From positions 1 through 35,046 of the forward strand of contig JAGQRE010000026.1 in NCBI GenBank assembly GCA_020425695.1: a DNA stretch of 35,046 nucleotides, read 5' to 3'. The notes beneath the pieces are model-generated. The model ran no database searches and was not told the origin of the DNA. It worked only from the letters and a program-made list of their open reading frames with translations. This stretch comes from Planctomycetota bacterium (GTDB taxonomy: Bacteria > Planctomycetota > UBA8742 > UBA2392). Position numbers and translations under genes: made by a program. Shown one piece after another: positions 12,050 to 26,323 of this stretch; the first letter of the stretch is position 1, and every line of letters starts with the position of its first letter.

Positions 12050-14599
12050 CTACTGGGCGTCCTTGGCTTTCTGCAACCACTTGCGGATATGCTCGCGGAT
12101 GGCTTCGTAGTGCGGGTCGCGGTCCAACGCTTCCTCGAACTTCTTCTCTGCTTTCGTGTAGTTCTCTTTCAGATATGCCAGGCGACCCTGGTAGTACGAC
12201 GTTTCAAATGACTTCGGGTTCAGGTTCCCCATGGTACGCACGGCCACTTCAGCCTGAGAGACATCTTCCTCGTCGATGAAGCTGCGAGCAAAGTCCACCT
12301 GGTCGCGAAACTCTTTGAGGTCTTCGTATTCGGCGCTCGTCGGATCGCGTGGCAGGTCCATCTGTTTCTGGTGTGGCATGCCCATGGCCGCCGTCGGGCC
12401 GGCTGCCAACGTACGGTTAACCGGGATATAGATGTATGCCCCGTAGGTCCTTGGTGCTGCCGACACCCACATCTCGCCCGTCGTCACGTTCATCATCACG
12501 CTGTGACAGCAGATGCCCGCATCGATCGCGTTTCGGTTGCCGAGGCCGATGTCTTTGTCCCCGCGACCTTTACGATCACGCAGAATCTCAACGCCCGTCT
12601 TCTGGTCCAGCTTGCCGTAGTAACGCTCGGTCAGTTCTTCCAATCGCTGCCAGCGGTAAGTTGTTGTCGCACGCTCAATCTGCTCAATGTTGATGGGATC
12701 ATCTTTCAGAGGCTCCGTGAGCATGTGATTGGTTTGCAGCAGTAGTCCGGGTTTCGCGGCCTCGCGCATGGCGCAATGTTCTGGCGACTTTTCGATCACG
12801 ACGGCCCGCCCGTCTTTGCGACTGGCAATCATGTATGTGTCGCTGACGAACACCGGGGTGTCCTTGATGATCGCGTAAGCCTCGTCGATGTTGTGAGCCT
12901 GCTCAAGCACGCGCCTCACCAGCATTGAAACCGGTGTGCCCAGGCGCCCGAACTTCGTCTCGGAAGTCCGTGCGGCATTTACGTGCACGCTGACGCCCTC
13001 AGCATTCATGCCCGTTACTGCGCCGGCCATACCCGCCCATGCAACATGCACGTAGGCGATTCCGTCGTCAGGCCAGACGTAAACGACGGCCTTGTCGTCG
13101 TCAAAGACATCGCCTGCCTCGAAGTCAAAGTTGCGTCCGACGTACAGATCGCCGTTGGCGCTGGCTTCATCCCAGGCAGCGAAAGACGTGCACCCCACGA
13201 AGTCACTGGTCGTCACCAAGGGGTTGTCGATGAAGATGTGGCTGATGTCGTGGGCCGCGTGATAGTTCAGAATCCGGTGATATAGCGGCGCTTCTTCGGG
13301 GTGGTGGTCAACGCTGCCCTCCGTCAGGCCCAAAATCTCAAGTTTCTCGGCGTCACTGACGAAGTCGGGCAGGTCGCGGTTGTTGATCGCCACAAGTTGT
13401 TTGGCCGCCCAGAAACTGAAGTCGCTGGGCAGGAACTCACGAATCTTGTCGAGCAACAGTTCTTCCTGTGCCTCTGTAAGTTCCCGTGTCAGGCGTGCGT
13501 TTGCATAGCCGCGCTCCCAGCGATTCCCGGCCAGCCCGATTTCGTGCAGCCCGTTTCGGTCACGCCGCCAGCTTTTGCCCAGTATCTGGAGCTCCGTGTC
13601 TCCGATCGCACGGTTCGTGATCTCTTCCTGTGCAAGCGCGCGACTGCCTTCATAGACGGGCGGTTCCGCGATGCACCAGTTGGTCACGTACACCGAGACA
13701 CTAACGAGGGTCGCAATAAACAAAGCAAGCCCGAACATCGCCAAACGCGTCACCCAGCCGTGAATGCGCGGGTATGAGGGTTTGCGGGCGGCTTCCCTGA
13801 TGTTCTGCAACTCCTGCTTCATTTGTGCGTGCACGCGCTGCTTCAACTCAGCGGCATCCTTGGCGTCTTTGAGCCCTGTAGTCGGGATCGGATCGAGTAC
13901 CTTCAGGACTGCATTCGGGTGATGCACCAGCGGGCTGCCCTTACGTACACACGCGCCGGTACCGTCCAGCACAACTGGCACCACCGGCACCTGGGCATCA
14001 ACGGCCAGCACAAACGCACCGTTCTTGAAGCGCCGAATACGCCCGTCGGGGCTTCGGCTGCCCTCAGGGAAGACCAGAATGCTCACGCCGTCCTTCAACC
14101 AGTTCAGGGCTGTGTCGTAGCCACGCGGGCGATCTGAATCGACTTCGGCCTTGGTTTCCTCAACCTGGATATGCCTCGCAAGCTTGTTCAACTCACCCAT
14201 CAACGGATACTTGAACGGCCAGCCCTTGATCATCCAGCGGGCATTCACGGGCAACATCAGCGCCATCAGGATGTCGAGTGTTGATTGATGGTTGCAGACA
14301 ATCACGCACGGCGACGGAAAGGCCTTGCGCCGAACATTCACGTGACGCTGCTGGCCAAAGGGAAACAATCGAAAGAACCAGCGCGCGATGCGTCGCTGAC
14401 CCGAGTAAAACGCATCGCCGCGATGACGAACAAGGAACCGGTCAGCGAGCCAATAAGGCAACTCCAACACGAACAGAAAGAACGCCAGTTGCGTGCCCAG
14501 CAGCCCATAGGCACAGACCGCCCGGACAACGTTCATCACCGGATTGGACGCCGGTGGATAGCTGGAATCTGGATCGGCTTTGTCCGCCATTGCTGTCAT
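12050..14599 (-). CDS. PlsC-type acyltransferase fused to C45-family Ntn hydrolase/acyltransferase and TPR tail
   Basis: 849 residues. Residues about 25-270 are a membrane-associated 1-acylglycerol-phosphate acyltransferase domain: N-terminal hydrophobic segment, HxxxxD box NHQSTLD (103-109) and FPEGSRS (177-183). A membrane helix at about 285-307 follows. Residues about 345-745 match the C45 family (acyl-CoA:6-aminopenicillanic-acid acyltransferase-like): VGCTSF with candidate nucleophile C470 after G469, GRNFDFE, GMAGAVTGMNAEGVSVHVNA and LLQTNHM. The C-terminal part (about 775-849) looks like one or two TPRs. The first domain should acylate a phospholipid-type acceptor in the cytoplasm; the second is probably periplasmic and could transfer or remove an acyl group. 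Starts at 14599 or 14590. Divergent to ACP 1. Confidence 0.82.
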   Translation of the reverse strand: MTAMADKADPDSSYPPASNPVMNVVRAVCAYGLLGTQLAFFLFVLELPYWLADRFLVRHRGDAFYSGQRRIARWFFRLFPFGQQRHVNVRRKAFPSPCVIVCNHQSTLDILMALMLPVNARWMIKGWPFKYPLMGELNKLARHIQVEETKAEVDSDRPRGYDTALNWLKDGVSILVFPEGSRSPDGRIRRFKNGAFVLAVDAQVPVVPVVLDGTGACVRKGSPLVHHPNAVLKVLDPIPTTGLKDAKDAAELKQRVHAQMKQELQNIREAARKPSYPRIHGWVTRLAMFGLALFIATLVSVSVYVTNWCIAEPPVYEGSRALAQEEITNRAIGDTELQILGKSWRRDRNGLHEIGLAGNRWERGYANARLTRELTEAQEELLLDKIREFLPSDFSFWAAKQLVAINNRDLPDFVSDAEKLEILGLTEGSVDHHPEEAPLYHRILNYHAAHDISHIFIDNPLVTTSDFVGCTSFAAWDEASANGDLYVGRNFDFEAGDVFDDDKAVVYVWPDDGIAYVHVAWAGMAGAVTGMNAEGVSVHVNAARTSETKFGRLGTPVSMLVRRVLEQAHNIDEAYAIIKDTPVFVSDTYMIASRKDGRAVVIEKSPEHCAMREAAKPGLLLQTNHMLTEPLKDDPINIEQIERATTTYRWQRLEELTERYYGKLDQKTGVEILRDRKGRGDKDIGLGNRNAIDAGICCHSVMMNVTTGEMWVSAAPRTYGAYIYIPVNRTLAAGPTAAMGMPHQKQMDLPRDPTSAEYEDLKEFRDQVDFARSFIDEEDVSQAEVAVRTMGNLNPKSFETSYYQGRLAYLKENYTKAEKKFEEALDRDPHYEAIREHIRKWLQKAKDAQ

Positions 14600-14704: not shown

Positions 14705-14944
14705 ATGGACAGCATCCGCAAACAAGTTGATCAAATCGTGGCCGACGAGTTTGAGCTCGACCCGGAGAGCATCGCGCCGTCCAGCGATCTTTACGACGAC
14801 CTCGGGCTGGACAGTCTTGATGCAATCGACCTGGTCGTCGCACTCGAGAAGACCTTCGGTTTCAAAGTTGAAGAGGGCGCAGCCCGTAAGATCCGCAAAG
14901 TTGAGCAGCTGTACGCCTTCGTAGAAGAACGCGTCTCGCCCTAA
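14705..14944 (+). CDS. Acyl carrier protein 1
   Basis: 79 residues with the ACP fold pattern and phosphopantetheine site DDLGLDSLDAIDLVVALE (Ser37). It should carry acyl chains for the neighbouring ketosynthases after activation by a phosphopantetheinyl transferase, which is not in the window. The start at 14705 (MDSIRKQVDQIV) matches ACP N-termini; the frame upstream to 14669 adds a basic stretch unlike ACPs. No ribosome site is visible. Its TAA overlaps the TAG of the convergent hotdog gene by four bases (14941-14944). Confidence 0.93.
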   Translation: MDSIRKQVDQIVADEFELDPESIAPSSDLYDDLGLDSLDAIDLVVALEKTFGFKVEEGAARKIRKVEQLYAFVEERVSP

Positions 14945-15297
14945 AGCACCCTGAGCGTTAACTCAGCAACTTCCTTGCCGGCATCCCGAATCGAAGCCTT
15001 CACCTTGGTACGCCCATCCTCACCGGATTCGAGCGACATCGCCATCACAAGCTCGCGCCCTGGGCCTGTCGGGTTCATGAATTTTGCACGTGAAACTTCA
15101 GCCAGTCTTACTTCACGCCCCAAGGCACGCCCCGCGAAGTGAACGGCAGCGGCAACCTGCACAACGGCAGGCAGCACCGGGCCTTCCGGAAAGTGCCCCT
15201 TGAAGAAGAGTTCATCGCCGCTGAAACGCAGTCTGGCGCTGCCTGCCTCAGCGTCGAACGCGAGCGTGGCAGCGTCCAGATCTTTGGTCAGGTTCAT
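14941..15297 (-). CDS. Hotdog-fold 3-hydroxyacyl-ACP dehydratase-like protein (FabZ/ApeI-like)
   Basis: 118 residues. The hotdog motif FFKGHFPEGPVLPAVVQV carries the conserved His (H35), as in FabZ and in aryl-polyene dehydratases. In FabZ a Glu follows 14 residues after this His; here the equivalent position is Ala49 (VQVAAAVHF), so the catalytic pair is incomplete. It may be a weak or different hotdog enzyme, or a non-catalytic partner. The start at 15297 gives an ATGA overlap with the upstream lipoprotein gene and a family-like N-terminus; a start at 15336 would sit deep inside that gene. It is the last gene of the minus-strand lipid operon. Confidence 0.78.
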   Translation of the reverse strand: MNLTKDLDAATLAFDAEAGSARLRFSGDELFFKGHFPEGPVLPAVVQVAAAVHFAGRALGREVRLAEVSRAKFMNPTGPGRELVMAMSLESGEDGRTKVKASIRDAGKEVAELTLRVL

Positions 15298-16064
15298 TCG
15301 TCTTCCTTCGGCGCCTCGAACACGCGTTCCGGCCATGGGTTGTCACGTGTTACAAGCTCGGAGATGTCGATTGTCAGCTTGTACGGTGGCCCCTGCGACT
15401 GAACGCCCCGCTCGCGCAGGACAATCTTGGACGGTGCGAAAAACCCGTCAAAATCTTTCCACTCGTACTGGTCAACGCGGTAAAGGCTGCGGTCGGCCTG
15501 CTGATAGTCGTAAAAGTCCACGTGCGGCGGGTCTCCGACCAGTTTCAAATCGAGGTCGGCGTAACGCCCGGCAATCATGGTGCGGGTCCCGTCAGACTGC
15601 GGCCGTACCTCGTTGCTTTTGATAACTAGGCCAGCACGGCCGAGAGACGTAGCGGCCTCTTCAGAAGCATCAACGCCGAACAGAAACACCCGGCTGATGT
15701 CACGGGCAATGTTGTCCAGAATCTTCTGGTCGAACTCTTCAGCTGCGAAAATCTTGACCACTTGACCGTCGGTGTAGGCGATATCGAACAGCTTCAACCC
15801 CTGCTCGCTCATACCTTGCAAGCGAAAACGCCCGGGTTGCTGCACAATCAGATAACCCATCAGGGTCCGTGTCGCGACGCGGAAATCCAGAGTAACGGTC
15901 TGCACACACTTGAACTGTTCCGGCCAACGGGTGTTGAAAGAGACTGCAATCGCGGTCGTTTCCATCGCCGGCGTCGGCGCTGGTGGCAGACGCTTGTAGG
16001 GGTCAGTCTCCGCACAGGCGGCAAGCAGCAACACCAACCCAAACAGGACCGAGGCTTTAGTCAT
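15294..16064 (-). CDS. Outer-membrane-type lipoprotein (LolA/LolB- or DUF3261-like)
   Basis: 256 residues with a lipoprotein signal: short hydrophobic stretch and lipobox LAAC, lipidated Cys at residue 17. Asp is not directly after the Cys (CAETDP), so sorting to the outer membrane is plausible. The mature part is beta-rich (VTLDFRVATRTLMGYLIVQQPGRF, LFDIAYTDGQVVKIFAAEEF), recalling LolA/LolB-like and DUF3261 lipoproteins that accompany MMPL exporters in aryl-polyene-type clusters. The family assignment is by pattern only. Its start overlaps the end of the MMPL gene by 8 bases and its stop overlaps the hotdog start by four. Confidence 0.72.
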   Translation of the reverse strand: MTKASVLFGLVLLLAACAETDPYKRLPPAPTPAMETTAIAVSFNTRWPEQFKCVQTVTLDFRVATRTLMGYLIVQQPGRFRLQGMSEQGLKLFDIAYTDGQVVKIFAAEEFDQKILDNIARDISRVFLFGVDASEEAATSLGRAGLVIKSNEVRPQSDGTRTMIAGRYADLDLKLVGDPPHVDFYDYQQADRSLYRVDQYEWKDFDGFFAPSKIVLRERGVQSQGPPYKLTIDISELVTRDNPWPERVFEAPKEDE

Positions 16065-18501
16065 GCCGCTTTAACTCCAGTAGTGTTGGCACCACGGCCA
16101 GTGTCAGTACCAGCGCGCTCGTTACGCCGATCGCTGTGGTTATGCCTACACTGAACAACGCCGGATGCTGGGCCAGTGCCATCGAACCAAAGCCGAACAG
16201 CGTTGTAAGCGCTGCAACCAGTACGCCGGCACCCGCATGTTTCATCCGCTCAATGGCCTGCTCATGCGACCGCGACCCACGATACGTCTGTACAAAGAAG
16301 ATGCCGTAATCAATCCCCAGCCCGGCAATGAAGACTGTAACCAGCGTGTTGATGATGTTGAAAGGGATACCCAGAACCCCCATCATTCCCAGTGTCCAGA
16401 CCATTCCACCGACAACAGGAACGAGCGCCGTCGCCACTTCGCGCAGGTTCCTGAACGTGACCCATAGAATCGTCAGCACCAGCAACAGGCTAAGCCCGCC
16501 CATCAACAGCAGGTCGTGGCGAATGAACTCAATCATCCGCCCCACAAAAGCCGCCTTGTTCAAAACGATGGCCGCTGGCTGACGGGCCTTCAGTTCACCA
16601 AGGCTCGTCGACTCCAGTTGGGCGGTCGTACCGATGTACCAACGCCCATCCTGCTGGCTGACGAAGTTGCTCATGAGCAGCCAGATCGGGCGCTTACGCA
16701 TAGCGTTCGGATCGAGCAGCTCCGGGTCTTTCTCAAGCGCCAACTTGTCGAAGAACCCGGCCATGGCACGGGGACTTACTGTCAGGTCGCGGTCCGGGTT
16801 GTTCGGGTTCGGCACGCTGACGCCGGCGATCAGTTCCCTTATTTTCTCGATGCGCTGGTTGCTCCAGAATCTGCGCCAGCGGGCGATGTTATCGAGTTGC
16901 GTCTGTGTGGACGGCATCACCCATGCTGCGCTTTCATACTTCGCACCGAGTTCCTGCAGGTCGTGCGCGGCAAGGTCGTTCTGCCGCAGGGCCTGCTCAA
17001 GCGTGTCGCCGCCTACGACTACCAGTGTGCGGCTGAGCGTCTCCTGACCGAAGGTCTGCGCAACCAAATTTTCTGACTCGCGCGTTGCCTCGCTCTTGCC
17101 GTCCAGATTCATGACGTCGCCATCAAACCCTACGCTCGGGAGAAACAACGCGAGAACCAGCGTGACTATCCCCATCACAATCAGCACCGGATAACGCAGC
17201 TTGCGCCGTACGCGCTGCATTGAGCCAATCGCATTGCTGACCAGCGAAGACGCGCCCGGCTTTGGGCCGACCTTGCGCAACAACTGTGGCCCGGCGGTGA
17301 AAGCAAACACCAGCGACCCCGCAATGCCCGCGATTGCCATCTCCGACAACTGGTGCAACCCATCGAATTCGGAGAACCGGAGCATGAAGATCGCGAGTAT
17401 GGTCGTCACCATCGCCACGAAACCCGGGCGCGCGACGTGTCGCAAGGCGTGCCGTGCGCGGTCTTCGCGCTCGCCCTCCAGGCTGCCGTAGGTCGTCAGC
17501 AGGTGAACTGCATAGTCCACCGAGATACCAAGCAGCACGGCCGCAAAGCCGGTCGTAATCGCCGACAACTCACCGTGAATCAGTCCCTGAGAACCCAGCG
17601 CCATACTGAAGCCGAATCCCACACTCAACAGAGTGATCAGAATCGGCGACAGCGCACGAAACGCGATCAGGAACAAAAGCAGTGTCGCGATCACGGACGT
17701 CAGAATCGTCAGGTGCATGTCCGTTTTCAGCACTTCCGCATTGTCGACGCTGCTGCGGTGAGCACCGATAACGTGTGCAGTGACACCTTCGGGCAAGTCA
17801 GCCAGGGCGGCGTCCATGGCGGACATCAATTCGCGACCCTTGCCCGTATTGCTGCTGGGGACATCGCTTTCAAGCAGCAGCACGGCCAGACGCCCGTCAG
17901 CGCTGAGAATACGCCCCTGCGCGTCAGTCTTACCCGCGAAGCCACTGTTCAGGTTTTGAAAGCGCTTGAGGGTCAGTTCATCAAAGCCGAAGGGGTCGTT
18001 GCGGAAGGTATCCACAATCTTGATGCCCTCTGCACCGGACTGGGCTGCGACGTAGTTCTGCAATGCTTCGCGGTAGTACTCTTCGTTGAGCCGCTCGTTG
18101 ACCTGCCGCTGCATGGACTCATCGAACATCAGTGGGGCTTTGCCGAGGTACAGGTTGCCGATGTCCTCTTGCGCCGACTGATCAATCCGCGACACGACTT
18201 CGCTGATACCCTCGACATCCCGCAGCGATACGTCGGCCTGATCGACGGCCAAGGCAAGCGTGGGCGAGTCCTCGCACTCAAGAGCGACCACAATGCGCTC
18301 AAGTCCATGGTAGCGATGCATCGCGAGCTGCGCCTCGGAGACGATTGGCTCGTCATGGGGCAGCAGCGCAAACACGTCTTCCTGAAAATCGATACGCAGG
18401 GCGCCGAGACCGGCGACGAACAACATTAAAGTGATCACCACCGGCAATAAGACCGGCTTGCGCTTGAGGAAATCGAACAATTGCTCAAAAGGGCCGCGCA
18501 T
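16057..18501 (-). CDS. MMPL/RND-family lipid exporter
   Basis: 814 residues with the duplicated RND layout: one N-terminal helix (about 17-37), a large periplasmic loop, a helix bundle (about 265-430), another single helix near 435-455, a second loop and a final bundle (about 665-810). Motifs include GISVDYAVHLLTTYG in the first half and FIAGLGIDYGIFFVQTY in the second, typical MMPL sequences with intramembrane Asp. Half-size (about 800) MMPL proteins export lipids or polyene-type products. Here it sits between the FAD enzyme (9 bases upstream) and the lipoprotein (8-base overlap), which suggests that it moves the cluster's lipid product across the inner membrane. Confidence 0.9.
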   Translation of the reverse strand: MRGPFEQLFDFLKRKPVLLPVVITLMLFVAGLGALRIDFQEDVFALLPHDEPIVSEAQLAMHRYHGLERIVVALECEDSPTLALAVDQADVSLRDVEGISEVVSRIDQSAQEDIGNLYLGKAPLMFDESMQRQVNERLNEEYYREALQNYVAAQSGAEGIKIVDTFRNDPFGFDELTLKRFQNLNSGFAGKTDAQGRILSADGRLAVLLLESDVPSSNTGKGRELMSAMDAALADLPEGVTAHVIGAHRSSVDNAEVLKTDMHLTILTSVIATLLLFLIAFRALSPILITLLSVGFGFSMALGSQGLIHGELSAITTGFAAVLLGISVDYAVHLLTTYGSLEGEREDRARHALRHVARPGFVAMVTTILAIFMLRFSEFDGLHQLSEMAIAGIAGSLVFAFTAGPQLLRKVGPKPGASSLVSNAIGSMQRVRRKLRYPVLIVMGIVTLVLALFLPSVGFDGDVMNLDGKSEATRESENLVAQTFGQETLSRTLVVVGGDTLEQALRQNDLAAHDLQELGAKYESAAWVMPSTQTQLDNIARWRRFWSNQRIEKIRELIAGVSVPNPNNPDRDLTVSPRAMAGFFDKLALEKDPELLDPNAMRKRPIWLLMSNFVSQQDGRWYIGTTAQLESTSLGELKARQPAAIVLNKAAFVGRMIEFIRHDLLLMGGLSLLLVLTILWVTFRNLREVATALVPVVGGMVWTLGMMGVLGIPFNIINTLVTVFIAGLGIDYGIFFVQTYRGSRSHEQAIERMKHAGAGVLVAALTTLFGFGSMALAQHPALFSVGITTAIGVTSALVLTLAVVPTLLELKRHD

Positions 18502-18510
18502 ACCGCCTGT

Positions 18511-20031
18511 TTAGCTGTGTTTGTGCGCGGCGTCATCGGTTTGGCTGCGGACTTCGTTGATCAGCGCGTCCGTACCGAGAATCGCTCCCGCCACACCGAA
18601 GCCCGTCACGCACGCGCCAAGCACTCCCGGCGTGCCTGTACCGGCGCCGGTAACGTATAGCCCCCGATAGCGCGTTCGCCTGCGTACGCCGTTGCGCCCT
18701 TGTGCGCCAAGGCTGGGCTGGTTCCCGTAAATCCCGCCCTGTGGATAGCCCGCATAGTCGCGCAGCGTAAGGGGTGTCGATGTTTCCACGATGGTCAGCT
18801 TGCCTGCAAGTTGCGGCAGGCGCTGCTCAATCATCGTCAGAATGTTGCCTGCGATACGGGCTTTAAGGTTCTTGTACTCGGCAGCTCGTTTCAACGTACG
18901 CGTGTTTTCCCATGGCGCGAACCACTCCCAGCGTACGCTCCCCATGGCACTGAACAACTGGGGCCCGTTGTCTGCGCGCGGCGGCACGTTCAGGATTGCA
19001 TCGGCGGGTCCATCCAACTGCGGAGCGTAGAAGCAATCTGGGTCATCATCCCGCAACAGGTAGTGATTTCTGCCCGCAATCCCATTCAGGTCCGCGCTTG
19101 CATCGACTGTCCCGTAAACCACGAAGGCACCGACACAGGCTTTTGCTGCGGCCATACGTTTGCGCAACACAGCCCGGTAGGCATCCTCGGGCATCATGTC
19201 GACGGCGATTTTCGGGTGGACAGCCAGAATCACTTCATCCGCATGTAGCGTTTCGCCATCTGAAAATTCAATGCCGCGCACAACGTCTTCCTCAACCAGC
19301 ACGCACTTTACTGGAGCTCTCAGACGTAACTCGCCGCCAAGTTGTTTCAGACGATCAACCAGGCGCGTTGTAATCGCGTCTCCCCCACCGTTGATGTAAT
19401 GCGGACCCTCCACGGCGCTGCCGACGACGGGAGCGTGAATACCCAAAGGTACGTCCGCGGCAGGCACCGCGTACAACGAAGACTGCGCACAGATCAACGC
19501 CCGCAAACGTGGCGAGACGCCCAACTTCTGCAAGTACTGTTGCAGGCTGGTTTCGAACAGTTCGCGGTCGTAGGCGCCTTCGGCTTCCGGGTTCAGTGTG
19601 TGCCAACTGAGCGACGCCTCAGCCTGCCGCATCCTCGCCACGTAGGCATCGATAGACGCCGCTTCAGTCGGGCACTCCCGCTTCATGGCCGTCGCAACGC
19701 TATCCCACCCAACCGGCATACAGAAGTCGCCCGACGGCAGACTGATGCGGTCGAAACACTCACGGTCGAGCGGTGTCGTCGGGACCTCGACACCCAGATA
19801 ACGGAACAGCCGCCACATGATCTGCCCGGGATACAACGAGCCCACGTAATGCACGCCCGTATCAAAGCGGCACGGTCCATCCGGTCCGCGGCGCTGAAAC
19901 ATCTGCATGCAGCCGCCGGGGATATTGTGCGCCTCAAGCACCAGCGGCTTGCGCCCGTGCATAGCCAGCACAATCGCCGCACTGAGCCCACTGATGCCGG
20001 AACCAACAACTATGGTCGAGTAAGCCAACAC
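18511..20031 (-). CDS. FAD-dependent oxidoreductase of the CrtI / carotenoid isomerase / RetSat family
   Basis: 506 residues. N-terminal FAD motif VVGSGISGLSAA (GxGxxG at 10-15), followed by the ARxxPGG-like EAHNIPGGCMQMF, then FDTGVHYVG, a family segment of carotene isomerases and retinol saturases. The C-terminal FAD signature is YRGLYVTGAGTGTPG. Such enzymes desaturate, isomerise or saturate long conjugated or isoprenoid chains. In a fatty-acid/polyketide cluster the substrate is more likely an acyl chain. The start is GTG sharing its G with the TAG of ketosynthase 1 (TAGTG), so translation is coupled. Confidence 0.85.
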   Translation of the reverse strand: MLAYSTIVVGSGISGLSAAIVLAMHGRKPLVLEAHNIPGGCMQMFQRRGPDGPCRFDTGVHYVGSLYPGQIMWRLFRYLGVEVPTTPLDRECFDRISLPSGDFCMPVGWDSVATAMKRECPTEAASIDAYVARMRQAEASLSWHTLNPEAEGAYDRELFETSLQQYLQKLGVSPRLRALICAQSSLYAVPAADVPLGIHAPVVGSAVEGPHYINGGGDAITTRLVDRLKQLGGELRLRAPVKCVLVEEDVVRGIEFSDGETLHADEVILAVHPKIAVDMMPEDAYRAVLRKRMAAAKACVGAFVVYGTVDASADLNGIAGRNHYLLRDDDPDCFYAPQLDGPADAILNVPPRADNGPQLFSAMGSVRWEWFAPWENTRTLKRAAEYKNLKARIAGNILTMIEQRLPQLAGKLTIVETSTPLTLRDYAGYPQGGIYGNQPSLGAQGRNGVRRRTRYRGLYVTGAGTGTPGVLGACVTGFGVAGAILGTDALINEVRSQTDDAAHKHS

Positions 20032-21248
20032 TACACGCGCGAAAGGATGACCGACGCATTGGTGCCGCCGAAGCCGAAGCTGTTGACAAGTACGTTCTTC
20101 AGGGGCTGCTCAAGCGTGCTCGGGACCACGTTGATCTTCGGCGCGTCGCCTTCCTGAGCTTCAAAATTGAGGTTCGGCGCGATGAATCCACCCTTCATCA
20201 TAAGCGCCGCGTACAGGATTTCACTAGCGCCGCTCATCCAACATTCGTGCCCTGTCATGCCCTTTGTGCTGCTGACCGGGGTTTTGACGCCGAAGATGTC
20301 GTGGATCGCGCCGGCCTCTTTCGCGTCGCCGATCGGCGTGCTGGTTGCGTGGGCGTTGATGTAGTCGATCGCTCCGGCTTCCAACTCCGCATTGCCCAAG
20401 GCCATCTGCATGGCCCGCCTCGCGCCATTGCCGCTGGGCAGGGTCAAGTGCTCGCCATCGCTGCTGAAGCCGTAGCCGCGCACTTCGGCAATCGGTACGC
20501 CTCCCCGTGCCTTTAGGTGGCTTTCGGATTCGAGTATCAAGGCCGCCGCGCCGCCGGATGGCACAAGCCCGTCCCGGTCGCGATCAAAGGGTCTGCTGGC
20601 CGCCGCAGGTTCATCCGCGCGCAAGCTGAACGTCCCCAACGCGTCGAAACTGGCCATCGACTCCCAGTTAATCTCCTGCATGCCGCCGGTGATGACAACA
20701 TCCTGCAGACCGGCGCGAATCAGCGTGAAACCCTGGCCAACGGAATGCGCGCCGCTGGCACAGGCGGCCGAGAGCGTCCAGGCCGCGCCCTGCGTGCCCA
20801 ACAGAGCATTCAGGTTCATACTGGCTGTGCTGTTCATGCACTGGAAGATGTAGCCGCTGCCGAGTTGCTGGGTGGTTCCATCGCGGCGCACGGCATCGGC
20901 GACTTCGACGTTGGGTGCGCTGGTGCTGTCGTTGCCGATGATCAACCCAACGCGGGGGGTGCGTAGCTTCGCAGGATCAATCCGCGCATGCTCAATCGCT
21001 TCCAGGGCTGCATAGGCGCACCATTGGGTGCTCTCGTGCATGCTTTTGCGAGCTTTCCGGTCGAGGCGCGCCTTGGGGTCGAAGCCCGTTACAACACCAG
21101 TTAGCGGTGAACGAAAGCCAAGTTCGCGGCGTCGCTCATCCACAATGATACCGCTGCGCCCCGCACGCAAAGCGTCCTCGATCTCGCCCAGAGTGTTACC
21201 AAGGCAGGAGACAGCGGCCAATCCGGATATGAAGACGCGTTCAGGCAT
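20031..21248 (-). CDS. Beta-ketoacyl-ACP synthase 1 (FabF-like)
   Basis: 405 residues, full-length KAS II-type enzyme that condenses malonyl-ACP with an acyl chain. The catalytic Cys is in LSAACASGAHS (C163), with His in NAHATSTPIGD (H300) and STKGMTGHE (H334), all present and spaced as in FabF. The segment after the second His (CWMSGASEI) departs from the usual GAAGA, suggesting a specialised enzyme. The start at 21248 (MPERVFISGLAAVS) is family-like; the frame extends to 21323, but those 25 codons are heptad array D. Coupled to the FAD enzyme downstream and probably in one unit with the FabG gene. Confidence 0.92.
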   Translation of the reverse strand: MPERVFISGLAAVSCLGNTLGEIEDALRAGRSGIIVDERRRELGFRSPLTGVVTGFDPKARLDRKARKSMHESTQWCAYAALEAIEHARIDPAKLRTPRVGLIIGNDSTSAPNVEVADAVRRDGTTQQLGSGYIFQCMNSTASMNLNALLGTQGAAWTLSAACASGAHSVGQGFTLIRAGLQDVVITGGMQEINWESMASFDALGTFSLRADEPAAASRPFDRDRDGLVPSGGAAALILESESHLKARGGVPIAEVRGYGFSSDGEHLTLPSGNGARRAMQMALGNAELEAGAIDYINAHATSTPIGDAKEAGAIHDIFGVKTPVSSTKGMTGHECWMSGASEILYAALMMKGGFIAPNLNFEAQEGDAPKINVVPSTLEQPLKNVLVNSFGFGGTNASVILSRV

Positions 21249-21323
21249 TCGTGGTCCGTATTTCGTGGCCCGTGATTCGCCATCCGTTCCGATACACGAA
21301 ACACGAATAACGAACCACGACAA
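21247..21323. repeat. Heptad repeat array D (11 units) filling the gap between fabG and ketosynthase 1
   Basis: Eleven 7-mers fit without a gap: ATTCGTG, GTCCGTA, TTTCGTG, GCCCGTG, ATTCGCC, ATCCGTT, CCGATAC, ACGAAAC, ACGAATA, ACGAACC, ACGACAA. The left half is TTCGTG-type and the right half CACGAA-type, so the array is an imperfect inverted repeat: 21249-21276 pairs with 21296-21323 at 20 of 28 positions. It could form a stem-loop in the mRNA just upstream of the ketosynthase start. Confidence 0.8.
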
Positions 21324-22049
21324 CTACATGTACATCCCGCCGTTTACACCAAGCACTTGCCCGGTGATGTAGCCAGCCTCGTCGCCCGCGAGAAAGCTGA
21401 CGGCCGCTGCGATTTCCTCGGGTGTACCGAAACGCCCCAGCGGCACGGCCTTGGACAACTCATCTTTCGGAAGTTCTTTTACCATATCGGTTTCGACGAA
21501 ACCCGGCGCGACGACGTTAACTGTGATCTTGCGGCTTGCGATCTCTTTCGCCAAAGACTTGCACGCACCGATCAAGCCCGCCTTGCTGGCAGAGTAGTTC
21601 ACCTGCCCCGCGTTGCCGGCCTGCCCACTGACGCTTGAGATCGCGATGATTCGCCCACTACGGCGGCGAAGCATGCCGCGCAGGCACGCCTTCGTTACGT
21701 GATAGAAACCGCCGAGGTTGGTGTTGATTACGCTGGTCCATTCTTCGGGGCTGGTCATCGCAAACAGCCCGTCTCGGGTGATGCCGGCATTGCTGACCAC
21801 AACATCCGGCGCGCCTTCAGCCTCAATCAATGGCTCAAGGGCAGCCATGACTGCTTCGCCGTCTGCCACGTCAAAACAGACGGGGATGGCGCTGCCGCCC
21901 GCCGCTTCGATTTCACTGCACAGGCTCTCCGCTTCGTCCTTGCTTCGCCCGTAGTTCACCCAGACACGATAGGCGTCACTCGCCAAACGCCTTGCAATAG
22001 CGCGCCCTATGCCCCTTGAAGCGCCTGTAACCAGTGCAATCTTTGCCAA
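21324..22049 (-). CDS. fabG: 3-oxoacyl-ACP reductase (FabG-type SDR)
   Basis: 241 residues, the usual FabG length, NADPH-dependent reduction of 3-oxoacyl-ACP. Motifs: TGASRGIG (8-15), NAGITRDGL (87-95), catalytic Ser in ISSVSG (S138/S139), YSASK (Y152, K156) and the C-terminal YITGQVLGVNGG. The start is TTG at 22049, seven bases after a perfect GGAGG (22061-22057 on the minus strand). Starts further upstream in the frame would add about 98 residues of non-SDR sequence running into the divergent promoter. It is the first gene of the minus-strand lipid operon. The symbol denotes the family; a housekeeping fabG may exist elsewhere. Confidence 0.92.
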   Translation of the reverse strand: MAKIALVTGASRGIGRAIARRLASDAYRVWVNYGRSKDEAESLCSEIEAAGGSAIPVCFDVADGEAVMAALEPLIEAEGAPDVVVSNAGITRDGLFAMTSPEEWTSVINTNLGGFYHVTKACLRGMLRRRSGRIIAISSVSGQAGNAGQVNYSASKAGLIGACKSLAKEIASRKITVNVVAPGFVETDMVKELPKDELSKAVPLGRFGTPEEIAAAVSFLAGDEAGYITGQVLGVNGGMYM

Positions 22050-22056
22050 GATGGAA

Positions 22057-22061
22057 CCTCC
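22057..22061 (-). promoter_or_regulatory. Shine-Dalgarno site that decides the TTG start of fabG
   Basis: GGAGG on the minus strand, seven bases before TTG 22047-22049. It fixes a 241-residue product rather than the 339-codon open frame. Confidence 0.8.
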
Positions 22062-22182: not shown

Positions 22183-22440
22183 GTGGAAGCCCTGGTTACC
22201 GAACTGAAAACACTGATCATTGAGCATCTGAACCTCGAAGATGTTGACCCGTCTACGGTTGATCCCAACGCGCCGCTTTTCGGCGAGGGGCTTGGCCTGG
22301 ACAGCGTTGATGCACTTGAATTGGTGATGCTGATGGAAACCACCTACGGGGCGAAAATCGAATCGTCCGAGGTTGGCAAGACAGCCTTCGCGACGCTGAG
22401 TTCCCTGGCACAGTTCGTCCAGGAAAACCGCAAGCCCTAG
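22183..22440 (+). CDS. Acyl carrier protein 2
   Basis: 85 residues with phosphopantetheine site GLGLDSVDALELVMLME (Ser41; the common DSL is DSV here). The GTG start at 22183 follows AAGGA at 9-base spacing and gives an ACP-like N-terminus; the open frame upstream to 22009 crosses the promoter and is rejected. First gene of the plus-strand unit, 10 bases before ketosynthase 2, which suggests that it is the carrier used by that enzyme. It differs clearly from ACP 1, so the two may serve different steps or starter and extender roles. Confidence 0.92.
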   Translation: MEALVTELKTLIIEHLNLEDVDPSTVDPNAPLFGEGLGLDSVDALELVMLMETTYGAKIESSEVGKTAFATLSSLAQFVQENRKP

Positions 22441-22450
22441 CAGCCCGGAC

Positions 22451-23689
22451 ATGTCCCAAACCAAGGCAGCGCAGCCGATTGCAATCACAGGGCTAGGCGT
22501 CATCGGCGCCTTTGGTCGCGGTTACGATGCGTTGCATTCAGCTCTGGTCGAAGCCCGAGAGGGCGTAGGACCGCTCACGCTGTGGGATTCCTCAATCACC
22601 GAACTCCCTGTGGGCCAGTACCGCGGTGATCTGGCCGATGACCTCAGCGCCGTCCCGGGCATCACGCCAAGAATCCGCAAGCGCCTCTCGCGATCCGACA
22701 CACTTGCACTCGTGGCAGCAGCCGAAGCAGTCGCGCAGGCCGGGCTTGATGTCTCGGTTGGCGGCGCGTACGTGGGGCAAAGCGTATGCGGGACACTGGT
22801 CAGCGAGGCCCTGTACATTGAGGCCAACCGCCGCGCGAAAACAGGCGACCTGTCCAGGCTCGACCTCGGCGGAGCATTTGTTCACGAGGGTGCCAACACG
22901 CTTGATCGTCTGGCTGAGGTCTTCAAGCTTCAAGGCCCAACGCTTTCCTTCATGACAGCCTGCAGCAGCGCGGCCAATGCGATTGGGCTGGCCGCCGACG
23001 CCATCCGCAGTGGACGCTGCGACTTGATGCTGGCCGGCGGCGCCGACAGTCTTTCGCGCATTGCGTTCAACGGGTTCTGCAGTCTGAAAGTCGTCAGCCC
23101 CGACGGCCCACGCCCGTTTGATCGCGACCGACAGGGCATGATGGTTGGCGAGGGTGCGGGCATGCTGGTGCTTGAGTCGGTTCAGCACGCGAAGCAACGC
23201 GGCGCGACGATACTGGGCTATGTTAGCGGCTACGGTCACTCGTGCGACGCCTACCACCTGACGGCACCACACCCTGAAGGTCGAGGTGCTGTCGCAGCCA
23301 TGGGCGAAGCACTTTCGATGGCCGGGCTGAAACCCGGCGAAATCGGCTACATCAATGCCCACGGTACGGCGACGCAGGATAACGACCGCACTGAGGCACG
23401 TGCCATCGCCGACGTCTTCAGGGGGTGCGAGGTTCCGGTCAGCAGCACGAAACGATACATGGGGCATACGCTGGCAGCGGCAGGCGGGCTTGAAGCTGCT
23501 GTCTCGCTGTGGGCACTGCAACAGAAGCAACTGCCGGCCAATCTTGGACTGCGCAACACGCTGGAGGACGCACCACTAAATATGGTTCGCGAGACAACCG
23601 CCGCCCATGAGTTGCGCCATGTCCTGTCGAACAGTTTCGGTTTTGGCGGCAACAATGCCGCGTTGGTATTCAGCAGGGCGGACGCATGA
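22451..23689 (+). CDS. Beta-ketoacyl-ACP synthase 2 (likely KS-alpha)
   Basis: 412 residues with a complete catalytic triad: C171 in FMTACSSAANA, H304 in NAHGTATQDND and H339 in SSTKRYMGHTLAAAGG. The late FGFGGNNAALVF glycine motif is intact. It resembles KS enzymes of aryl-polyene and related type II systems. The downstream CLF-like gene suggests a KS-alpha/KS-beta pair, although a small dead-nuclease-like gene is inserted between them. The last four bases (ATGA) overlap the start of that gene, so the three are translationally linked. Confidence 0.92.
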   Translation: MSQTKAAQPIAITGLGVIGAFGRGYDALHSALVEAREGVGPLTLWDSSITELPVGQYRGDLADDLSAVPGITPRIRKRLSRSDTLALVAAAEAVAQAGLDVSVGGAYVGQSVCGTLVSEALYIEANRRAKTGDLSRLDLGGAFVHEGANTLDRLAEVFKLQGPTLSFMTACSSAANAIGLAADAIRSGRCDLMLAGGADSLSRIAFNGFCSLKVVSPDGPRPFDRDRQGMMVGEGAGMLVLESVQHAKQRGATILGYVSGYGHSCDAYHLTAPHPEGRGAVAAMGEALSMAGLKPGEIGYINAHGTATQDNDRTEARAIADVFRGCEVPVSSTKRYMGHTLAAAGGLEAAVSLWALQQKQLPANLGLRNTLEDAPLNMVRETTAAHELRHVLSNSFGFGGNNAALVFSRADA

Positions 23690-24090
23690 ACATGGATCGC
23701 CAGCAACAATTGAACTGGTATTACGAGCAATTGTTCCTCGCCGCCACGGAGGTTCACGCCGCCCTTGGTCGCTGCCTCCCCGCCTCAACGTACCGGGAGT
23801 GTCTGGCCCACGAACTGGAATTGATGCAACGAAAGGTGCAACGCAACGTCTCCGTGCCGATCCTGTACCGTGAGCACAAAGTGGAAACCGGCGTTACCGT
23901 TGAGTTGATTATCGATGGGCTGGTCGCCGTCAGCGTCCTGAGCGTCGAGAACATGACGCCATTCAACGACCAGCAGATGCATACGCTGCTTCGTGTCTCC
24001 GGGCTTCCACTGGGCATCGTCGTCAATTTCAGCGTGCCCAGTATTCGCGGGGCCATGCACCGGATCCTGAACCCTAACCCGAGAGTCTGA
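23686..24090 (+). CDS. GxxExxY-family-like protein with lost nuclease residues
   Basis: 134 residues. The whole chain follows the GxxExxY (PD-(D/E)XK-like, PDDEXK_3) pattern: EVHAALG near the start, YRECLAHELEL, VPILYREHKVE, a central strand pair, then LRVSGLPLGIVVNFSVPSIRG and a final RI. The signature residues are gone. The GxxExxY motif reads CLPASTY (G to C30, E to A33, Y36 kept), the DLLVE acid is replaced in VELIIDG, and the ELK catalytic triplet reads SVL (83-85). Nuclease activity is therefore not expected. It overlaps KS2 by four bases and touches the CLF start (TGATGG), so it is an integral member of this operon. A structural or regulatory role with the KS pair is inference. Confidence 0.72.
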   Translation: MNMDRQQQLNWYYEQLFLAATEVHAALGRCLPASTYRECLAHELELMQRKVQRNVSVPILYREHKVETGVTVELIIDGLVAVSVLSVENMTPFNDQQMHTLLRVSGLPLGIVVNFSVPSIRGAMHRILNPNPRV

Positions 24091-25217
24091 TGGGCGTCGT
24101 TGTCACAGGTGTCGGTGTTGTCAGCGCACTGGGGGCGAACCCGGATGCGTTTCGCCGTGCCCTGCTGGACGGCACTAATGCCTGCGCGATGCACGATTTC
24201 GAACGCATGGATGGCTCCGTAGTTTCGGCTCCCGCTTACCTTGCCGTCGCGCCGGACCCCGCCGGGCTTATCGAACCTCGGAAGCTTCGTCGCATGTTCC
24301 GTCTCGCCCGCATGAGCGCCGTGGCTGCAAGGCAAGCGCTGAAGCACGCCGAGCTTGACCCTGCTTCCATTCATCCAACCCGGCTTGGCGTCTGCTTCGG
24401 CACGAGTTTCGGAGCGATGGAGCCGACGCAGAAATTCCTGGATTCCTGGATTGAAAACGGCGAGACCAGCGCAAGCCCGCTCCAGTTCATGAATAGTGTC
24501 CACGGCATTCTGGCCAGCCAGATCGCCATGGATATCAACGCCCAGGGCGTAAACCTGACGACGGCACAGAGGGACATCTGCTTTGAGGCCGCATTGGACA
24601 CGGGCGTCAATCTCATAGAATCCGGGCGTGCGGACGTGATTCTCGTGGGCGGCGGAGACGAGTTGACGCCGATGCTGCACGAGTTTGCATCGCACACTCA
24701 GCAAGTCGTGCTGGGCCGGGTGGAAGGGCTTGACCCGTGGGGTTCCAGACGCGGCATTGTGCCCGGTGACGGCGCGGGGGTTGTCGTGCTTGAGCGAGAG
24801 GACACACGGCGCAAACCGTCGGCCCGAATCAGCGCCACACGTATCGGGCGCTGGGACCACGGCGGAAATCTCGCCCGCGAATTGTGGCAACAGGCCGGCA
24901 AGCCCCGCATTGACCTCTTGACCGACAATCGTGACGGCGGCGCCGGCAGCACTCGGCTGAACCGGATGGAAGAGCGCGCACTCAAAGAATTTGCAGATGG
25001 CGCACCGGCCGTAAGTCATCGGGGCAACTTCGGCACGTACCCCAGCGCAGGCGCACAGCAGTTCATCGCAAACGTGCTGATGCTGAGTCACCACGAGTAC
25101 TACCAATTGCTGGCAAACGGCAAGCCATCGGGCGATTCCACCGGCGCACCCAGTGTGATCCTGCACAACGCCCCAAGCACCAGCGGCAGCCACGCAGGCT
25201 ACGTACTTTCAACCTGA
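24090..25217 (+). CDS. Ketosynthase-like chain length factor (KS-beta) without catalytic residues
   Basis: 375 residues of thiolase-fold ketosynthase. The active-site region reads NLTTAQRDICFEAALDTG, so the nucleophilic Cys position is Gln160, as in chain length factors and KSQ domains. The first His motif (NAHGT) is replaced by TDNRDGGAGSTR and the second (GH) by FGTYPSAGA. All three catalytic residues are thus missing. The fold elements GVCFGTSFGAME and GIVPGDGAGVVVLE remain. CLFs dimerise with an active KS and shape chain length; the Gln form can decarboxylate malonyl-ACP in some systems. KS2 is the obvious partner. Its start overlaps the stop of the upstream gene. Confidence 0.85.
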   Translation: MGVVVTGVGVVSALGANPDAFRRALLDGTNACAMHDFERMDGSVVSAPAYLAVAPDPAGLIEPRKLRRMFRLARMSAVAARQALKHAELDPASIHPTRLGVCFGTSFGAMEPTQKFLDSWIENGETSASPLQFMNSVHGILASQIAMDINAQGVNLTTAQRDICFEAALDTGVNLIESGRADVILVGGGDELTPMLHEFASHTQQVVLGRVEGLDPWGSRRGIVPGDGAGVVVLEREDTRRKPSARISATRIGRWDHGGNLARELWQQAGKPRIDLLTDNRDGGAGSTRLNRMEERALKEFADGAPAVSHRGNFGTYPSAGAQQFIANVLMLSHHEYYQLLANGKPSGDSTGAPSVILHNAPSTSGSHAGYVLST

Positions 25218-25270
25218 GCGAGCACGCCACCGGGATGTTCCGAGCACCGCTTGCTTGCTTTACTGTCGCG

Positions 25271-26323
25271 ATGGCAATGCAGAGCCCAATCAAGCTGATC
25301 AAGACCTACGCCAGCTTCGTAAAGATCGCCCACACGATCTTTGCCCTGCCGTTTGCATTGGTCGGCATGCTCGCCGCGTATGCCGTTCCGACGGGATTCG
25401 TATACGTAATGCCGGGGCCAGACGGCTCTATGCCGGGGGGAAGTTTCGATCGTCATGTGTACTTCTTTTCGACGACCTTGATTCTGATTTTACTCTGTAT
25501 GGTCGGAGCTCGCAGCTTCGCGATGGCCGTCAACCGCATCATCGACCGAAAGATCGACGCCAGGAATCCACGCACGGCCGTTCGCGAGTTGCCTTCGGGT
25601 GCAATGTCACTTGGTCAGGCCTGGGTCTTCGCCACTGCCATGGCTGGGATCTACTTTGGAGCTTGCTGGTACCTTGGCGACGTAGTCCTTTGGCTGAGCC
25701 CGATCCCGATCGCATTGATGTTGCTCTATCCGCTGACAAAGCGGTTTACGTGGCTATGCCACATGGTTCTTGGTGCTTCTCTCGGATTGGCACCGGTCGG
25801 GGCGTGGGTGGCAGTTCGCTCACAGTTCGACACCGTACTGAACAGTGGATTTGCTGAATCCGTCTCTTCCGACCTTGGCTGGAGCGCTGTCTCTGAACCA
25901 CTACCTTGGCTGGTGGGTGGCGCGGTGATGTTGTGGGTGGCGGGCTTCGACGTGGTCTATGCCCTGCAGGACGACGAGTTTGATCGCGAGAACAAGTTGC
26001 ACTCGATCCCCGCCAAATTCGGACGACGCGGCGCACTCTGGATCAGCCGCGGCATGCATGTCGTGAGCGCCATGCTGTTCTTTGCCTTCACATGGATGTT
26101 GACGCACCCTGCGCCAACAGGTGGCATGGATACGCGGCAATACACCCAGATCGCCGAGTGGGTCTGGGCTGCGCCTTGTGTAATGCTGGCGGGTATGCTG
26201 TATCAGCACTCGCTTGTGCGGGCCGATGACCTGAAGCGTGTGAATCTGGCCTTTTTCACGGTAAACGGCGTCATCAGCGTCGTCTTCGGGGCCGTGTTTC
26301 TTGCCGCGTACCTGTTGGGCTAG
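25271..26323 (+). CDS. UbiA-family prenyltransferase (MqnP/UbiA-like)
   Basis: 350 residues with about eight to nine membrane helices. The N-terminus KTYASFVKIAHTIFALPFAL is typical of 4-hydroxybenzoate/MqnP-type prenyltransferases. The first Asp-rich motif is NRIIDRKIDARNPRTAVRELPSG and the second is YALQDDEFDRENKLHSIPAKFG, read here in overlapping parts. These bind the prenyl diphosphate through Mg2+. The likely role is attaching a polyprenyl tail to a quinone precursor, possibly in the futalosine menaquinone route. Starts at 25235, 25271 or 25277 are possible; 25271 is nearest to the family N-terminus and none has a good ribosome site. It lies 53 bases after the CLF gene and could be co-transcribed, but quinone synthesis is the simpler explanation. 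Confidence 0.85.
   Translation: MAMQSPIKLIKTYASFVKIAHTIFALPFALVGMLAAYAVPTGFVYVMPGPDGSMPGGSFDRHVYFFSTTLILILLCMVGARSFAMAVNRIIDRKIDARNPRTAVRELPSGAMSLGQAWVFATAMAGIYFGACWYLGDVVLWLSPIPIALMLLYPLTKRFTWLCHMVLGASLGLAPVGAWVAVRSQFDTVLNSGFAESVSSDLGWSAVSEPLPWLVGGAVMLWVAGFDVVYALQDDEFDRENKLHSIPAKFGRRGALWISRGMHVVSAMLFFAFTWMLTHPAPTGGMDTRQYTQIAEWVWAAPCVMLAGMLYQHSLVRADDLKRVNLAFFTVNGVISVVFGAVFLAAYLLG

Follow-up and report, generated by a model that had tools for sequence, protein, structure and literature searches.

The 35,046 nucleotides of Planctomycetota DNA analysed here (the window, meaning this whole stretch) carry two divergent transcription units with one common intergenic region, between a FabG gene and an acyl carrier protein (ACP) gene. 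On the plus strand, the ACP gene (22210..22440; its start is not fixed) is followed by the gene for an ApeO-like ketosynthase (KS-alpha; 22451..23689), whose active-site TACSS is intact and to which the closest solved KS is PDB entry 9s5h. Next come the small gene that is our subject (23686..24090), an ApeC-like chain length factor gene (CLF; 24090..25217) and a UbiA-type prenyltransferase gene (25235..26323), which is conserved downstream of the CLF in genomes with and without the small gene. In the CLF, Pfam recognizes the KS N-domain only, with no Ketoacyl-synt_C match in 24090-25217, and the catalytic Cys has become Gln (TTAQRD), both of which are expected of a chain length factor. Genes on the minus strand encode a FabG-like 3-oxoacyl-ACP reductase (ApeQ-like; 21324..22058), a FabB-like ketosynthase (ApeR-like; 20031..21323), a CrtD-like FAD oxidoreductase (18511..20031), an MMPL/RND-family exporter (ApeM-like; 16057..18501), a DUF3261 protein (ApeN-like; 15294..16064), an ApeI-like hotdog dehydratase (14941..15336) and an acyltransferase with an AAT-type acyltransferase domain (12050..14599). 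A second ACP gene (14705..14944) lies on the plus strand.

The sequence-only reading of this DNA had spoken of a lipid-synthesis operon. That wording is too general: judged from its genes, the locus is more specifically aryl-polyene-like. Aryl polyene (APE) synthesis uses an ApeO-ApeC KS-CLF heterodimer together with the FabB-like ApeR, a two-KS logic (PMC8358021). The window holds an APE-type gene set, with a KS and an inactive CLF, a second, FabB-like KS, a KR (FabG), a DH (the ApeI-like dehydratase), two ACPs and export genes, and the likeness extends to the DUF3261 protein, the RND exporter and the acyltransferase. Most roles on the E. coli ape list (apeA-R) are matched, and the window locus differs in adding the CrtD-like gene, the UbiA gene and the small gene between KS and CLF; the E. 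coli list contains no nuclease-fold gene (PMC8253772). No acyl-ACP synthetase or aromatic starter gene was recognised among the window genes scanned.

The small gene runs from an ATG at 23686 to a stop codon at 24088-24090, exactly as first read, and encodes 134 amino acids. Its product matches PF13366 (PDDEXK_3) with 76.4 bits (cut-off 22) and TIGR04256 (GxxExxY) with 82.9 bits (cut-off 35), in both cases over residues 14 to 127 approximately. The proposed family membership over nearly the whole length thus holds far above the curated cut-offs, and TIGR04256 also matches six orthologs with 57-82 bits. By these profile scores, the protein is a GxxExxY/PD-(D/E)XK protein by ancestry, chance being excluded by a wide margin. 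Profile searches gave no other DNA-binding domain match, the defence and phage libraries gave zero matches, and a search of the PDB by sequence found no relative. At its upstream junction, the gene's start and the KS stop share 4 nt (ATGA); downstream, its stop and the CLF start share 1 nt (TGATG), so both ends do overlap the flanking frames, as had been claimed.

A search of 16 genomes of the window's family, most of them incomplete assemblies, yielded 12 orthologs, whose identity ranges from 40 to 100% and which belong to genera g1, g2, g3 and g5. The same search gave many weaker GxxExxY paralogs, these genes being multi-copy in the genomes concerned. The KS lies directly upstream of the ortholog in 12/12 cases, and the CLF comes next in all 11 loci where the contig continues (that of G004 ends there); none of the unlinked GxxExxY relatives fetched has a KS or CLF beside it. 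The strict linkage that the sequence-only reading led one to look for is therefore present. In each of the 12 orthologs, the start codon falls between -16 and +2 nt relative to the point where the KS stop ends; the offset of the CLF start from the stop of the small gene is -1 to +2 nt in most of the 11 loci. In three g1 species (L008, L010, L011), 26-132 nt separate that stop from the likely CLF start, a spacer made up partly of a GATTTTGGATTT-like repeat; the KS junction, unlike the CLF side in these three, never has a gap of more than 2 nt.

Searches at order, class and phylum level brought no further ortholog. Among 392 genomes of the phylum, nothing came up outside the four genera at E <= 1e-30 except one weaker, unlinked paralog (G010), and a scan of genome contigs gave a single unlinked relative, L006. 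Close relatives of the CLF are themselves confined to one family among the 392 phylum genomes (E <= 1e-40). In the four non-carrier genomes of the family (genera g4 and g6), KS and CLF are adjacent with nothing between them.

Several other GxxExxY proteins deserve mention. A second lineage without ELK (e.g. VDFCVNDAIVCVLVD; L094-L109) occurs in 16/16 family genomes, at 62-86% identity to the window genome's own copy (L005, G000:C133:26593-26988), with murA close by in 7/16 loci. In G014, which has no KS-linked gene, an intact GxxExxY frame (L020:952-1914, minus strand) reads straight through into a hotdog domain of FabA type (PF07977, 66 bits); the two parts are either fused or separate genes that share one open frame, with a non-ATG start. 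On a contig classed as viral (L092:3285-4435), an intact GxxExxY gene lies beside a simple-repeat frame reading TTKNTKNTKDTKEGTKK.

In the window protein, the name motif G-x-x-E-x-x-Y is broken: C30 stands for the Gly and A33 for the Glu, with Y36 present. In addition, E73 replaces the active Asp and S83-V84-L85 replaces ELK. The first reading had all four elements changed (Gly, Glu, acid and ELK), which is correct for this protein but only in part for its clade. The motif Glu is found in 0/12 KS-linked orthologs versus 18/18 unlinked relatives (17 from the family plus L006, with the murA-linked lineage left out), and the same counts apply to the Glu and to the Lys of ELK. The active acid is Asp in 18/18 unlinked relatives, versus Asp in 4/12, Glu in 1/12 and Pro in 7/12 of the KS-linked proteins. 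Loss of the name-motif Gly does not characterize the clade, as 8/12 orthologs retain it. Thus, the homologues in the same context share the lost motif Glu and the lost ELK Glu and Lys in 12/12 cases, and no KS/CLF-linked copy has kept the catalytic residues. The vacated columns are variable, with A, G, P, V or L at the motif Glu, S, R, A, N or T at the ELK Glu and L, W, H, Y, R, I, A or E at the ELK Lys. A catalytic PD-(D/E)XK nuclease requires the active D and E-x-K, a combination that the KS-linked clade does not have. Judging from these residues, catalysis appears to have been lost throughout the clade, and we refer to its members as pseudo-GxxExxY proteins.

Structure prediction might have revealed an unrelated fold, and it did not. 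The intact homologue L006, with three relatives in its alignment, gave a model with a pLDDT of 89 and a pTM of 0.83, and the best PDB matches of this model (Cas4 SSO0001, LHK-Exo, RecE, lambda exonuclease and ACE1; E 0.005-0.03) are all PD-(D/E)XK enzymes. Scans of viral contigs supplied only two usable relatives, so that the window protein was modelled from a four-sequence alignment, shared with L006, and with modest confidence (pLDDT 66, pTM 0.63). The order of helices and strands in this model is nearly identical to that of the intact homologue. Its best viral match in BFVD, at E 7.9e-5 and probability 1.00, is to a PD-(D/E)XK nuclease; against the PDB it has no significant match, though several of the entries listed are restriction enzymes. 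The predicted folds agree with PD-(D/E)XK. What sets the 12 orthologs apart from the GxxExxY family is the missing motif Glu and ELK Glu/Lys, the fixed KS-CLF locus and a C-terminal tail.

This tail carries N129-P130-x-P132-R133 (NPxPR), which is invariant in 12/12 orthologs and mostly absent from relatives. In the window, the DNA encoding it overlaps the site of the CLF ribosome-binding site. Nevertheless, NPxPR is kept where the CLF starts at least 26 nt further on, and the ribosome-binding site alone therefore offers no explanation for it. Within genera, the dN/dS of the pseudo-GxxExxY gene is 0.08-0.32, compared with 0.08-0.24 for the neighbouring KS, single ratios being rough since several dS values are high. 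By this measure, the gene is under purifying selection about as strong as that on the KS. Twenty-four positions are invariant across the 12 orthologs, down to 40% identity. The idea of a chance or decaying open reading frame was set aside in view of the dN/dS values and the conservation.

All KS-linked proteins fall into a single clade with support of 94/100, whose stem is long, at 1.46 changes per site. The 12 carriers are split from the four non-carriers in the KS+CLF tree (support 100/99) and group together in the AtpD tree (100/98). Two genera possess this KS-CLF pair but lack the gene, which the pair therefore does not need in general; a single gain (or a single loss) explains the pattern. 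Close orthologs of the FabB-like KS (77-86% identity) are found in exactly the 12 carrier genomes together with the CrtD-like gene, whose phyletic pattern is that of the pseudo-GxxExxY gene, and both are missing from the four non-carriers. This co-occurrence rests on one phylogenetic split and so counts as one event, not as independent support. Sites that differ cleanly between carriers and non-carriers number only four in the KS and five in the CLF, too few for an obvious new interface to be visible.

Retention of the gene between KS and CLF suggests that it has been put to a new use, other than cutting, in the synthesis of an unusual lipid or pigment; the reading that needs the fewest assumptions is a non-catalytic role alongside the synthase. 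We propose that a GxxExxY (PDDEXK_3) gene was captured once between KS and CLF, in an ancestor of the four genera, and that its product lost the phosphodiesterase chemistry and persisted as a non-catalytic protein. It would be co-produced with KS and CLF through the stop/start overlaps and would bind the KS-CLF heterodimer, or the contacts of the latter with ACP or the FabB-like KS, by means of the retained nuclease fold and the clade-specific NPxPR tail, thus acting as a third subunit, structural or modulatory. Translational coupling with both neighbours suggests a fixed stoichiometry, which makes KS-CLF binding the leading proposal. Taken as a whole, this account of a domesticated pseudonuclease, captured once, made with the KS-CLF machinery and binding to it as a third subunit, seems to us somewhat better than an even bet. 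The physical binding, the role of the tail and any effect on chain length or assembly are what we infer beyond the residues and gene order. A bolder version, plausible but falling short of even odds, is that the type II KS-CLF synthase of this one bacterial family has come to depend on the pseudonuclease as an obligate third subunit, one that would adjust chain length, assembly or the hand-over to the FabB-like KS and the CrtD-like enzyme.

The usual ligand of the PD-(D/E)XK fold is nucleic acid, and the main rival builds on this: the dead fold would bind DNA or the operon mRNA and autoregulate the divergent synthase operons, whose common FabG-ACP intergenic region would offer a suitable target. 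Such a regulator is possible, though we hold it to be unlikely. Its gene is wedged in between KS and CLF, not close to the divergent promoter, and the absence of any other DNA-binding domain match speaks against it as well. The net charge of the KS-linked proteins is near zero (-3 to +2), a further point against nucleic acid binding; the same is true of the unlinked relatives, however, so that charge does not decide the matter.

A job outside the pathway, with the operon used merely for expression, is rather improbable. The second dead lineage near murA, present in 16/16 genomes, lends it some substance, implying that dead members serve other purposes in these genomes. Against this, the KS is never separated from the gene in any of the 12 genomes, and the presence of the gene matches that of the FabB-like KS and the CrtD-like gene exactly. 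Even less credit can be given to a still-active phosphodiesterase with displaced residues. PD-(D/E)XK enzymes are able to move their catalytic residues, and the Asp is kept in 4/12 orthologs, with Glu in its place in the window protein; but the Asp column is Pro in 7/12, and the variable ELK columns hold no conserved acidic or Lys substitute. Lastly, a functionless, decaying mobile insertion, kept in frame only through the translation of KS and CLF around it, would fit a captured stray copy of a multi-copy gene, but it is largely refuted and the least probable of all, given a dN/dS well below one, the invariant positions and the lack of any stop or frameshift in all 12 orthologs.

Comparable cases exist elsewhere. 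The N-terminal domain of RPB5 and the central domain of ERCC1 are non-catalytic PD-(D/E)XK-fold subunits in which the fold, its catalysis lost, is kept for protein contacts; both are unrelated to the window protein by sequence searches. We know of no non-catalytic PD-(D/E)XK subunit from fatty acid or polyketide synthases. Searches of the open-access literature for GxxExxY, PDDEXK_3 and dead nuclease folds did not turn up a function for a single GxxExxY protein, and one member with a fixed, selected partner locus makes the family testable. If the pseudo-GxxExxY protein does bind KS-CLF, it would be an accessory subunit of a kind new to type II fatty acid and polyketide synthases, and would show that metabolism can recruit a nuclease fold.
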